64,000 nucleotides of DNA from Amaricoccus macauensis (lineage in GTDB: Bacteria; Pseudomonadota; Alphaproteobacteria; Rhodobacterales; Rhodobacteraceae): the NCBI RefSeq assembly GCF_014201905.1, contig NZ_JACHFM010000005.1, forward strand, positions 124,001 to 188,000, written 5' to 3'. Of this stretch, positions 19,589 through 24,120 are shown in pieces (within the stretch, counting starts at the first letter, position 1; every line of letters starts with the position of its first letter). The notes under the pieces are model-generated. The model saw nothing but the letters and a program-made list of their open reading frames with translations. It was not told where the DNA came from and made no database searches. The position numbers were made by a program, and so were the translations under genes.

Positions 19589-19666
19589 ATGCTGGCGCGA
19601 CGCGACGCGCCGGTCTACCGTCTTCACAACGGGGCCTCGATGACCCCGGCCAAGGGAGACTGTCCG

Positions 19667-20614
19667 ATGCTGCTTCGATCGCTCTCCGGCGTTGTGCTTG
19701 CCGCTGTCCTGGCGGTGCCGGCTCTCGCTGCCAATTACACCCTCATTGCTCCCGCGGCGCCCGGCGGCGGCTGGGACCAGACCGCGCGCACCATGCAGAC
19801 CGTGATGCAGGACGAAGGCATCGCCGGCAACGTGCAGGTGACCAATGTCCCGGGCGCCGGCGGCACCATCGGGCTCGCCCAGTTCGTCAACCAGTCGAAG
19901 GGCAACCCCGAAGCGCTGATCGTCGGCGGCTACGTGATGCTCGGCGCGATCCTGACCAATGCGTCACCGGTCGATCTCACGATGGTCACGCCCATCGCGC
20001 GGCTGACCGGTGAATCCGAAGTCATCGTCGTGCCTGCGTCGAGCGAGATCCAGACGATGGCCGACCTCGTCACCAGGCTGAAGGCTGATCCCGGCGCGGT
20101 CTCCTGGGCCGGTGGCTCGGCGGGCGGCACCGACCACATCGCCGCCGGCCTCATCGCCAAGGCGGTGGGCGTCGATCCGACCAAGGTCAACTACATCGCC
20201 TACTCCGGCGGTGGCGAGGCGCTCGCGGCGATCCTCGGCAACCAGGTCACTGTCGGCGTCTCCGGCTATGGCGAGTTCGAGAGCCAGATCGAGGCAGGCA
20301 CTCTGCGGGCGCTCGCGGTCTCCGGCGACGCGCGGATCGAGGGCCTCGACGCGCCGACCCTGAAGGAAGCCGGCGTTGACGTCAGTCTCGAGAACTGGCG
20401 TATGGTCGCGGCCGCGCCGGGCATCACGCCCGAGCAGGAAGCGGCGATCACCGCGGACATCACGAAGATGGCGCAGTCGGAGTCGTGGAAGAAGGCGCTG
20501 GCCGATCGCGGCTGGATCGACCGCTTCCAGTCCGGCGAGGAGTTCCGCAACCAGCTCGCCGAGGATACGACAGCGACGGCGACCATCCTGAAAGCCATCG
20601 GTCTGGTGAAATGA
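19667..20614 (+). CDS. tctC: Tripartite tricarboxylate transporter, periplasmic binding protein
   Basis: 315 residues from the ATG at 19667 (GGGAG at 19654-19658). A Sec signal peptide ([21 protein letters not shown]) precedes a Bug/TctC fold: [36 protein letters not shown] and [19 protein letters not shown] are typical ligand-contact segments. It binds a carboxylate in the periplasm and delivers it to TctAB. It overlaps tctB by four bases (ATGA). The ligand (citrate, other carboxylate, or terephthalate-like) is not determined. No tctDE sensor pair is adjacent. Confidence 0.95.
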
Positions 20615-21090
20615 GCGGAGGCGGCGCGTCCGGCCGTCCCGATCGGGGCGGCCTCGTCATTGCGCTGCTTCTCGCCATCCTCGCCGCGGTCATCTTCTTC
20701 TCGACTCGCGCGATGCCGGTGACGGCGCAATACACCCGCGTCGGCCCGACCACCTTTCCCTACGCGGTCGCGGCCGGGCTCGCCGCCCTCGCGGTCGGGA
20801 CGGCGGTCTCGGCGCTGCGCGGCGGCTTCCCCGAGCGCGAACCCGAGCGGCTCGCGCCGGTGCTCTGGATCGTCGGCGGCCTCGTCGCGCAGATTCTCCT
20901 GTTGAAGCCGCTGGGCTTCTCTATCGCCACGGGCTTTCTCTTCGCGCTGACCGCGCGGGGCTTTGGCCGCGGCCCGCTCTGGGTCACCATTCCGATCGGC
21001 GTGGTGTTCTCGCTCGTCGTCTGGGTCATCTTCGCGGACGTGCTGCAGCTGTCGCTGCCCGCCGGGCCGCTGGAACGCCTCGTGCCCTGA
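20611..21090 (+). CDS. tctB: Tripartite tricarboxylate transporter, small permease subunit
   Basis: 159 residues with four hydrophobic segments ([77 protein letters not shown]), the TctB layout. The start overlaps the tctC stop, and tctA starts ten bases after its stop with GAGGGG between. It forms the membrane complex with TctA. Confidence 0.93.
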
Positions 21091-21100
21091 GGGGATCCGC

Positions 21101-22618
21101 ATGGAAACGTTCGGCCTGCTCTTCCACGGTCTCGGCCTCGCCCTGCAGCCGATGAACCTGCTCTACGCGCTGATCGGCGTGACGCTCGGCACCGCGGTCG
21201 GCGTGCTGCCCGGCATCGGGCCGGCGCTCACCGTCGCGCTGCTGCTGCCGGTGACCTATCAACTCGATCCGACAGGATCGCTCATCATGTTCGCCGGCAT
21301 CTACTACGGCGGCATGTACGGCGGCTCGACCACGTCGATCCTGCTCAACACCCCCGGTGAGAGCGCCTCGATCGTCACCGCGCTCGAGGGCAACAAGATG
21401 GCGCGGAAGGGCCGGGGCGGCCCGGCGCTGGCCACCGCGGCAATCGGCTCCTTCGTGGCGGGCCTCATTGCCACGCTCGGACTGGCCTTCATCAGCCCAT
21501 GGATGGTGAAGTTCGCCCTTTCGCTCGGGCCGGCGGATTATTTCGCGCTGATGGTGCTCGCCTTCGTCACCGTCTCGGCGGCGTTCGGTGACAGCGCGCT
21601 GCGTGGCCTGACCGCGCTCTTTCTCGGGCTGGCGCTCGGTCTCATCGGCATCGACCTGCAGACCGGACAGGCCCGGCTTTCCTTCGGCATCCCCGACCTT
21701 CTCGACGGCGTCGAGGTGACAACCCTCGCCGTGGCACTCTTTGCCGTCGGCGAAGCGTTGAAGATCGCCGCCACCCCGCCCGAGGGCGAGGAACGGATCG
21801 AGCCGGTGAAGGGCTCGGTCTGGATGACGAAGCAGGACTGGGCGCGGTCGTGGAAACCGTGGCTGCGCGGCACGGCGATCGGTTTCCCGATCGGCGCGAT
21901 GCCGGCGGGCGGTGCGGAGATCGGCACCTTCCTCAGCTACTCGACCGAGAAGGCGCTGACCAAGCACCCCGAGGAGTTCGGCAACGGCGCGATCGAAGGC
22001 GTGGCCGGACCGGAGGCCGCGAACAACGCTTCCGCCGCCGGAACGCTGGTGCCGCTGCTCACGCTCGGCCTGCCGACGAGCGCCACGGCGGCGATCATGC
22101 TCGCAGGGTTTCAGCAGTTCGGGCTTCAGCCCGGACCGCTGCTCTTTGCCACCAACGCGCCGCTGGTCTGGAGCCTGATCGCGAGCCTTCTGGTCGCGAA
22201 CTTCATGCTGATCGTCCTGAACCTGCCGCTGGTCGGCCTCTGGGTGCGGCTCCTCGCCATCCCGAAGCCGTGGCTCTACGCCGGCATCCTGACGTTCGCG
22301 ACACTCGGCTGCATCGGCGCAAACCCCTCGCCGGTCGAACTCGCGCTGCTTCTGGCCTTCGGCCTGCTCGGCTATGGCCTCCGGCGCTTCAGCTATCCGA
22401 TCGCGCCGGTGGTTGTCGGGCTGATCCTCGGGCCGCTGGCGGAGCAGCAGCTCCGCCGCGCGCTGGCGATCAGCCAGGGCGATCCGTCAGTCCTCGTCCA
22501 CTCGCCCGCGGCGATCATACTCTACACCATCGCCGCCATCGCGCTCCTGCTGCCGCTGATACTCAGGCTGCGGGGCAAGGGAGCGGTGCTGAAGGCGATG
22601 CAGGCCGACGAGGACTGA
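21101..22618 (+). CDS. tctA: Tripartite tricarboxylate transporter, large permease subunit
   Basis: A 505-residue polytopic membrane protein of typical TctA length (about 12 segments). Conserved stretches are [20 protein letters not shown] near the start, the [20 protein letters not shown] signature (about residues 68-87), and a second half-repeat around [20 protein letters not shown]. It carries the solute delivered by TctC using the ion gradient. Last gene of the tctCBA operon. Confidence 0.96.
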
Positions 22619-22644: not shown

Positions 22645-22809
22645 TCAGCCGTGCCCGACCGTCATGAACGTGTTCGGGTCGATGCCGAGGCGGCGCAGAT
22701 GCACCGGATCCGGCCGGCGGTTGGCCTCGATGGCAGCCACGACGTGGCTCGCGCTGCGGACCGTGCCAAACGCGCCCGAAATGCTGGCGATGATGCGATT
22801 GATCTTCAT
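22645..22809 (-). CDS. Small hypothetical protein, paralogue B of a tandem pair (54 aa)
   Basis: A 54-residue frame starting MKINRIIASISGAFGTVRSA and ending LRRLGIDPNTFMTVGHG. It aligns without gaps to the next upstream gene (22871-23035) with 27 of 54 positions identical by my count, the strongest evidence that both are real genes. Conserved blocks are N-R-I-(IV)-A, S-x-A-F-G-x-V-R-x-A-S, and R-R-L-G-(IM)-D-P-x-x-F-(ML)-(TS)-(VI)-G-H-G at the C-terminus. There is no signal peptide or membrane helix. The N-terminal part could be an amphipathic helix. I do not recognise the family. It lies 61 bases downstream of its twin. Confidence 0.72.
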   Translation of the reverse strand: MKINRIIASISGAFGTVRSASHVVAAIEANRRPDPVHLRRLGIDPNTFMTVGHG

Positions 22810-22870
22810 GGGACTGGATACTCTTCTCTGGGTATTACGAAAGTCTGCGAAACGGTGGAGACTCGACGCG

Positions 22871-23035
22871 TCAGCCGTGGCCGATGCTCAGGAAGGCGCG
22901 CGGATCCATACCGAGACGACGCACGGCCTCCGGCACCGGCCGGGTGGTATCGATACCACGGAGAACAATGCGGCTCGCGGGGCGAACCTCGCCGAAGGCA
23001 TTCGAAAGGCGGGCGACGATACGGTTGAAGCTCAT
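22871..23035 (-). CDS. Small hypothetical protein, paralogue A of a tandem pair (54 aa)
   Basis: A 54-residue frame starting MSFNRIVARLSNAFGEVRPA and ending VRRLGMDPRAFLSIGHG. It is preceded by two AGGAG elements, one about ten and one two bases before the ATG. It shares 50% ungapped identity with the gene at 22645-22809, which follows it in the same direction, so the two look like one transcript born of duplication. The invariant Gly-His-Gly C-terminus and the R-R-L-G-x-D-P turn suggest a conserved binding role. No known family. Confidence 0.75.
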   Translation of the reverse strand: MSFNRIVARLSNAFGEVRPASRIVLRGIDTTRPVPEAVRRLGMDPRAFLSIGHG

Positions 23036-23139
23036 GACTCCTGTGCTCCTGTGTCTTGGTTGAGGGATACATGGCAGCTTTCAGCCCGGCTTGTTAGGTG
23101 CAGTGCAGCAAGACCGCCATGTGCCCAGCGCAAGGGTCT

Positions 23140-23292: not shown

Positions 23293-24120
23293 TCAGACCG
23301 CCGGCTTCACGATCCCGTCCACCGCCCACGCGAGGCCGGATCGCCGCGCTTCCCGGATCCGATCCTTGTTGGCACGGATGATTTCAGGGTCGACATAGCC
23401 ACGGGAATGGTCGAGGTGCACGACCGACGCAAGATAGCGGCTATGCTGTCCGCGAATACCTGCGTTGGTCAGTCGGACCCCAAGCTCCTTGTCCTCGCCG
23501 CCGTACTTCATCGACTCGTCAAATCCGTTGACCTTGACGAGTGCCGCGCGAAACGCCGAGGCATTCGACCCACCCCAGGCGCGCTGAACCGGCGTCAGCC
23601 GGTCGAGCGCCGCCATGACCGGTTTCGGAAACGGCCGGGTCTTCAGCCAGGTGCCGAAGCGGTCGAGCGCGCCATGGGCCCGGAGCCAATCCCGGCTGAA
23701 CACCTCGCCCGAAGCAATGAGGTCTTCCGTCACCGCCGCGCTCGCCGCCGCGTCGAGCCGGATCAGGCTCCCCGACGACCAGCGATCGGGCCGGGCGATC
23801 TCCAGATGCCGCGCCACGAAATCCGGCCGGATCAGCACGTCGCCATCGAGAAACAGCAGGAACTCCGCCTCCGACGTGGCGATCGCCCGGTTCAGGATGG
23901 CGTTCTTCTCGAAGCCCCGATCCTCGTGCCAGACATGCCGCACCGCGACGCCCGGCAGGGCGAAAGCCTCGACGACGGCGGCGGTCTCAGGCCCGGACCC
24001 GTCGTCCGCGATGGCGATCCCGTCTGGCAGAATCCCCTGACGCGCGACCGACGCGAGGCAGAGCCCGAGCGAGCGCGGGTTGTTGTAGGTCGAGACGATG
24101 AGTTCGGTGCGCACCGTCAC
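23293..24120 (-). CDS. Family 2 glycosyltransferase
   Basis: 275 residues from a GTG at 24120 that overlaps the preceding stop (GTGA). GT-A fold signs are ELIVSTYNNPRSLGLCLASV at the start, IAIADDGSG (first Asp), EAEFLLFLDGDVLIRPDFV with the DxD metal site near residue 105, and a late WGGSNASAF...FDESMKYGGEDKELGVRL segment typical of galactosyltransferase-like GT2/GT27 C-termini. A cytosolic or membrane-associated sugar transferase; donor and acceptor unknown. Coupled to the GT92-like gene upstream. Confidence 0.9.
   Translation of the reverse strand: MTVRTELIVSTYNNPRSLGLCLASVARQGILPDGIAIADDGSGPETAAVVEAFALPGVAVRHVWHEDRGFEKNAILNRAIATSEAEFLLFLDGDVLIRPDFVARHLEIARPDRWSSGSLIRLDAAASAAVTEDLIASGEVFSRDWLRAHGALDRFGTWLKTRPFPKPVMAALDRLTPVQRAWGGSNASAFRAALVKVNGFDESMKYGGEDKELGVRLTNAGIRGQHSRYLASVVHLDHSRGYVDPEIIRANKDRIREARRSGLAWAVDGIVKPAV

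Follow-up and report, generated by a model that had tools for sequence, protein, structure and literature searches.

A tandem pair of small basic protein genes beside tctA in Amaricoccus macauensis, and the possible place of its family in a VtlR/LsrB-type regulon

The tandem pair and its family

The window analysed here, a stretch of 64,000 nucleotides, carries on its minus strand two adjacent frames of 54 codons, each running from ATG to TGA and separated by a spacer of 61 bp, next to a tct gene cluster. The pair and the genes around it are as follows.

22871..23035, minus strand: copy B, a small basic protein of 54 aa, pI 11.9, 17% Arg (16.7%); the pair's first gene in transcription
22645..22809, minus strand: copy A, a small basic protein of 54 aa, pI 11.7, 11% Arg (11.1%); the pair's second gene
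21101..22618, plus strand: tctA, tripartite tricarboxylate transporter permease (PF01970), convergent with the pair
20485-21090: ORF in the tctB position, between tctC and tctA, assigned by position
19664..20614, plus strand: tctC, substrate-binding protein of the same tct cluster (PF03401), start uncertain
23293..24120, minus strand: glycosyltransferase, upstream of the pair

The initial annotation had singled out these frames as paralogues; their coordinates and their ATG and TGA ends are confirmed, and the two products indeed align without gaps, 27 of their 54 residues being identical. A search of the window's genome (4.83 Mb) with copy A recovers copy B at an E-value of 9.9e-12, against 0.14-1.4 for the next matches, and the likeness of the two copies is therefore far above chance. 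The Gly-His-Gly (GHG) C-terminus, which had been put forward as conserved, was seen only in the window's genus: it ends five of seven aligned members from that genus, and in a separate 23-row alignment of the family it is missing from all 17 rows that belong to other genera. The core shared in the 23-row alignment is RxPxxxDLRxLGIxP.

Taken alone, the pair is weak evidence of selection on protein, because its differences show little codon-position bias (19, 17 and 24 at the first, second and third positions) and dN/dS between the copies is 0.56. The argument for such selection, also made initially, is carried instead by orthologues. Relatives are found in the window's genus, in other Rhodobacteraceae and in Rhizobiaceae. 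For 21 rhizobial genes the median dN/dS is 0.147 (highest 0.75) over the 209 usable of 210 pairs, which are related and not independent, and differences fall as 1270, 717 and 3571 on the three codon positions; loci L095 and L109 are omitted from this set. The substitution pattern demonstrates purifying selection in rhizobia, and we read the genes of the family as being kept as proteins, with a frame that is not incidental. This is almost certainly a real protein-coding family.

In a first survey, matches were present in 5 of 61 genomes at E 0.01, all five belonging to the window's genus. Two relatives of this genus (G003 and G010) hold one copy each and a third (G004) holds two, the second of which is weak in sequence (E 0.58) and is assigned by its end and its place. 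The copies of these three genomes are flanked by a thrS-like gene in the same orientation, which occupies the place of the glycosyltransferase in the window, and a tct gene on the opposite strand; Pfam places the thrS-like gene of G004 among the class II aminoacyl-tRNA synthetases, and we take it to be thrS. A more distant member lies at another location in G009, also of this genus. Two wider profile surveys give lower bounds, as at most about 21-27 preliminary candidates were scored per genome. The family-level survey found members in at least 8 of 295 genomes at E 0.001, a count that includes the window's own genome and the doubtful G277, whose match holds an internal stop; the match in G306 is cut by a contig end. 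The class-level survey found them in at least 2 of 240 genomes at E 1e-4, namely the window's genome and G466, which belongs to a family other than Rhodobacteraceae and holds a second tandem pair (L112 and L115, frames of 69 and 76 aa) beside a gene that is presumably DUF1638-like. The matches of a survey at E 0.01, in 28 genomes, mostly resembled chance on inspection.

A scan of a named genome collection yielded 27 loci, from Cereibacter changlensis (two), Frigidibacter, Falsirhodobacter and 23 Rhizobiaceae/Rhizobiales records, among them Shinella, Rhizobium, Agrobacterium albertimagni and Sinorhizobium medicae. With start codons chosen by us, the encoded protein has 54 aa at 23 of the 27 loci and at 22 of the 23 rhizobial ones. 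Relatives are also present on 88 plasmid records (78 Sinorhizobium, 9 Ensifer and 1 Shinella); plasmid searches with the single queries L064 (minus its first residue) and L037, and a single-protein scan of genome contigs with copy A, gave no match. Over 23 members, the mean Arg content is 10.8% (range 4.6-16.7) and the median pI 10.95.

In agreement with the initial statement that no such family was known, there is no credible match in Pfam or NCBIfam; the best ones, at E 0.0058 and 0.0061, are weak, concern unrelated families and were rejected. The accompanying view that such genes fall below gene-calling limits holds only in part, given that S. meliloti HB772_33500 is annotated as 'hypothetical protein'; in S. 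meliloti RCAM1115 the gene so annotated directly follows TctC, TctB and TctA. The literature records found, mostly short of full text, mention no small protein tied to tctCBA and no name for the family. Neither tctA nor 54 aa appears in the main text, as far as available, of a paper on the S. meliloti small proteome (PMC10117765), whose supplements may list the gene.

A VtlR/LsrB-type box and its candidate regulator

The aligned upstream regions of 14 tct-linked genes have a conserved element in common. The published box of the regulator VtlR, called LsrB in Sinorhizobium and Agrobacterium, is GCAT-N3-TG-N3-T (PMC7486931, which like the other papers below is cited from part of its text; a 15-mer form is given in PMC12595884), and all 23 rhizobial loci carry it, between -85 and -101 bp relative to the start. 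Counted over all 39 upstream regions, the published box occurs in 24, where shuffles would give 0.57; the one beyond the rhizobial 23 (second copy of G004, at -183) lies inside a neighbouring gene and is probably due to chance. The same form is also found at plasmid loci of S. meliloti (two more) and Ensifer (one more). A relaxed box, which was defined after seeing the data and tuned on the same sequences in which it is counted, occurs in 34 of the 39 regions, against 1.34 expected. This set omits G238 and G306; the latter is without upstream DNA, and G238 has the relaxed box at -87 and lacks the published form. The boxes of Rhodobacteraceae members mostly read GCAT-N3-GG-N3-T. Even the relaxed box is absent upstream of copy A, the G249 gene, the Cereibacter locus L084 and both G466 copies; copy A is perhaps cotranscribed with copy B. 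At tct-linked loci the box-bearing promoter sits between tctA and the small gene. The elements of the copy B promoter are the following.

23110..23122, minus strand: VtlR/LsrB-like box ACATGGCGGTCTT, 87 bp upstream of the copy B ATG, relaxed form
23069..23081, plus strand: another box-like element, ACATGGCAGCTTT, in inverted orientation and overlapping the presumed -10 region; putative role in the same promoter

The window box ACATGGCGG (ACAT-GGC-GG-TCT-T) is not the exact published form. The pattern [AG]CATGGC-N-G-N3-T has two matches in the 64-kb window, both in the copy B promoter and mutually inverted, and the inner ends of the two box-like elements are 28 bp apart and flank the putative -35 region. 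The -10-like element of the window reads CATGTA; of the 33 regions with a box, 24 have a (C/T)ATCTT element about 50 bp past it, and the window belongs to the other nine. Scanned over the whole genome of the window, the box pattern gives 13 matches and its reversed form none; the 13 include three promoters of DUF1127 genes (L065, L066 and L069) and one match inside a LysR gene.

As the regulator query we used S. medicae LsrB, taken as the product of the LysR gene beside trxB, an arrangement published for A. tumefaciens vtlR (PMC7486931). Each of the 12 genomes searched contains an LsrB-like LysR protein, with identities of 39-51% and E-values no weaker than 6e-68; the next-best LysR protein of these genomes is at E 2e-39 or weaker. 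These proteins are likely orthologues of LsrB. The DNA-binding region agrees with that of LsrB at 42-48 of 62 residues across the 12 genomes, and at 43 of 62 in the window's genome, where the gene is the following.

G000 C3:694217-695077: LsrB/VtlR-like LysR gene (L129), 41% identity, E 1.9e-74, no trxB within 1.5 kb

Among the 12 genes (L126-L137), trxB is found within 1.5 kb only in G466, where it lies next to the LysR gene, and not within that distance of the other 11. The presence of an LsrB/VtlR-like LysR gene in Rhodobacteraceae genomes and in G466 contrasts with a statement printed in 2025, in the part of PMC11975290 cited here, that LsrB is found solely in Rhizobiales; the abstract of PMC7486931 describes VtlR as conserved in the class.

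The direct targets activated by VtlR include abcR1 and the small-protein gene atu1667 (PMC7486931), and three DUF1127 genes of Brucella depend on VtlR (PMC12595884); among the VtlR/LsrB targets named in the available portions of the published work examined, members of the present family do not appear. Another known VtlR-activated transcript, A. tumefaciens VrsA of about 300 nt, was found through a box between two convergent genes. Control of the family by VtlR/LsrB is probable in rhizobia, and for the window's species we consider the chances evenly balanced. A stress-inducible pair had been suggested initially, for which the groES or groEL neighbours in some Rhodobacteraceae may leave room; the promoter box speaks instead for control by a VtlR/LsrB-type regulator.

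Relation to DUF1127 proteins

Proteins of the DUF1127 family (PF06568) are predicted to have a two-helix fold. They are small, basic and Arg-rich, with about 14% Arg (PMC12501420), and the present family, at 54 aa, is likewise small, Arg-rich and basic. The sensor kinase PhoR is a binding partner of DUF1127 proteins in Agrobacterium and E. coli, and one DUF1127 protein, CcaF1, binds RNA (PMC12501420); YjiS of Salmonella has 54 aa and is associated with the inner membrane (PMC11707872).

By the Pfam model, the family does not belong to DUF1127: a search with 23 members up to E 10, in which the HMMER filters drop most matches above about 0.1, lists PF06568 for none of them. Profile comparisons nevertheless make a diverged true branch of DUF1127, with the same fold and the same partners (PhoR or RNA), an alternative to be weighed. 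Using hhalign, the family profile could be aligned with that of 37 DUF1127 proteins with a score of 22.1 and a probability of 49%, a score that none of 300 column shuffles attains (best 15.5), but the controls with reversed profiles score 19.1 and 18.1; a smaller set gives 19.7, with none of 200 shuffles as high (best 17.4). When each family was scored with the HMM of the other, 12 of 26 members of the present family and 13 of 37 DUF1127 proteins lay above the 95th percentile of shuffles, although single shuffled sequences score up to 9.3 against 9.6 for the best real one, and the DUF1127 HMM gives both window proteins a score of about 0. The core RxPxxxDLRxLGIxP can be set in register over LSDRxLxDIGLxR of DUF1127, whose D and R in DIGLxR are not retained in the family. 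Homology of the two families is therefore suggestive only, the excess over shuffles being offset by the high reversed controls and by the near-zero scores of the window proteins.

The promoters provide a further point in common. The 37 DUF1127 genes consist of seven in the window's genome (six of them over the Pfam cut-off) and 30 of 39 matches in seven other genomes, namely those with a locus. The relaxed box stands upstream of 12 of the 37, against 1.62 expected, with one of the 12 (at -26) doubtful, and the published box upstream of 3, against 0.75 expected; in the window's genome three of the seven DUF1127-like genes (L065, L066 and L069; G000 C4:155119-155499) have the relaxed form. Two of the seven, L069 and L067, make up a tandem DUF1127 pair with a box before its first gene, which mirrors the arrangement in the window. 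On balance, descent of the family from within DUF1127 is a tentative reading that we hold to be somewhat improbable; it is compatible with the adaptor explanation given below.

Genomic neighbourhood and proposed function

At 24 of the 27 loci of the named collection the small gene directly follows tctC/tctA in the same orientation, and all 23 rhizobial loci have a tct gene as neighbour; tctA also lies upstream in two further Rhodobacteraceae, G238 and G249. In the window's genus the adjacency to tct is kept, but the small gene faces the tct gene, from the opposite strand, in the window, G003, G004 and G010. The linkage is patchy in Rhodobacteraceae. Starting from the transporter, eight close TctA matches (62-100% identity) were found in 100 family genomes, and only one of the eight, that of the window's own genome, clearly has the small gene within 1.5 kb; at L209 one frame near tctA reaches E 0.055. 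Elsewhere the surroundings differ: the small gene adjoins a DUF475/TerC gene at L084 and L041, its neighbour is a DHH/DHHA2 protein at L101 and groEL at L086, and at L119 Pfam identifies a DHH/DHHA2 protein and groES nearby. The neighbours at L120 are presumably the same two, and the DHH/DHHA2 gene we take to be an inorganic pyrophosphatase. The Rfam terC RNA element (RF03067) is found at L084 6406-6466 and L088 6490-6552, upstream of the DUF475/TerC gene that adjoins the small gene.

This neighbourhood would also fit a dedicated accessory of TctCBA, that is, a small protein that binds TctA or TctB and adjusts transport directly, as other small transporter-bound proteins do. Besides the position after tctA, seen likewise in the annotation of S. 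meliloti RCAM1115, and that beside a tct gene in the window's genus, such an accessory would have to be reconciled with a box-bearing promoter of its own, with loci that have no tctA within 5 kb (L084, L086 and L101) or within 1.5 kb (L040 and L047), and with Cereibacter changlensis G125, where tctA is present without the small gene within 1.5 kb; we regard it as unlikely. Far less probable still is a regulatory RNA of the AbcR or VrsA kind with an incidental frame, which the box common to VtlR targets published as sRNAs (in part of the cited texts) would allow but which is opposed by the conserved frame and length, the third-position excess, the median dN/dS of 0.15 and, for the window pair, the lack of any Rfam match that reaches the gathering score. 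Rfam searches of seven family loci at E up to 0.1 gave nothing at the small gene, and a sub-threshold ctRNA match just past the small gene at L084 was rejected.

Our preferred reading, to which we assign a probability of roughly 0.5 as a whole, is that the window pair arose by tandem duplication of a gene encoding a small, Arg-rich, basic protein of an unrecognised alphaproteobacterial family, and that this family, by analogy with DUF1127, comprises small regulatory adaptors that belong to a VtlR/LsrB-type regulon and, in some lineages, are linked with carboxylate uptake. The small-protein regulator proposed by the initial annotation thus stands as the best guess, with a target that is likewise conjectured from the analogy. 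The pair would be transcribed from its own promoter carrying the VtlR/LsrB-type LysR box, and owing to this box it would belong to the same kind of regulon as the DUF1127 small proteins. A LysR regulator that signals carbon or redox state may bind and activate at the window promoter; the basic protein might then bind an acidic surface, as on a sensor kinase, a transporter-linked partner or RNA, in the manner of DUF1127 proteins, and its binding as an adaptor would tune nutrient uptake. The linkage to tctCBA suggests carboxylate uptake as the tuned process, at least in Rhizobiaceae, where the constant tct neighbour makes it the likeliest one. Tandem duplication may have raised or diversified the dose.

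One could speculate further that a main conserved output of VtlR/LsrB-type regulators across Alphaproteobacteria, including Rhodobacterales, consists of two kinds of small basic proteins, DUF1127 and the unnamed family, that couple carboxylate uptake to carbon and redox state, and that some VtlR-activated sRNAs, such as VrsA, may be mRNAs for such proteins; we consider this a long shot. Our confidence in the preferred reading and in this extension is lowered by the DNA-binding region of the regulator, which at 42-48 of 62 residues is not near-identical to that of LsrB, and by the deviating -10 element of the window.

An unnamed family of small proteins would thereby be added to a regulon with known roles in symbiosis and carbon use, and the family itself gains a promoter logic and a genomic partner. 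Its function can be tested in S. meliloti, which has an intact gene that is annotated only as hypothetical. VtlR/LsrB-type control may also extend past Rhizobiales, contrary to the statement in the cited part of PMC11975290.

Among known systems, the DUF1127 proteins (the SDPs of A. tumefaciens, YjiS of E. coli and Salmonella, CcaF1 of Rhodobacter) resemble the family in their similar size and Arg-rich, basic composition, in being encoded several times per genome and sometimes in tandem, in the relaxed box at 12 of 37 genes and in a loosely similar C-terminal motif. The family differs from them in having RLGIxP, preceded by a conserved RxP, in place of DIGLxR, in being without a Pfam match and in being often tct-linked. 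The VtlR/LsrB regulon (atu1667, abcR1, vrsA and the Brucella DUF1127 genes) is approached by way of the published box at the 23 rhizobial members and the regulator-like gene in all 12 genomes, whereas the boxes of Rhodobacteraceae members depart from it by mostly having GG in place of the central TG. The TctCBA operon is the neighbour at every one of the rhizobial loci (23 of 23) and is adjacent in the window, but the family protein is none of TctA, TctB and TctC, has its own promoter and is encoded elsewhere in several Rhodobacteraceae.
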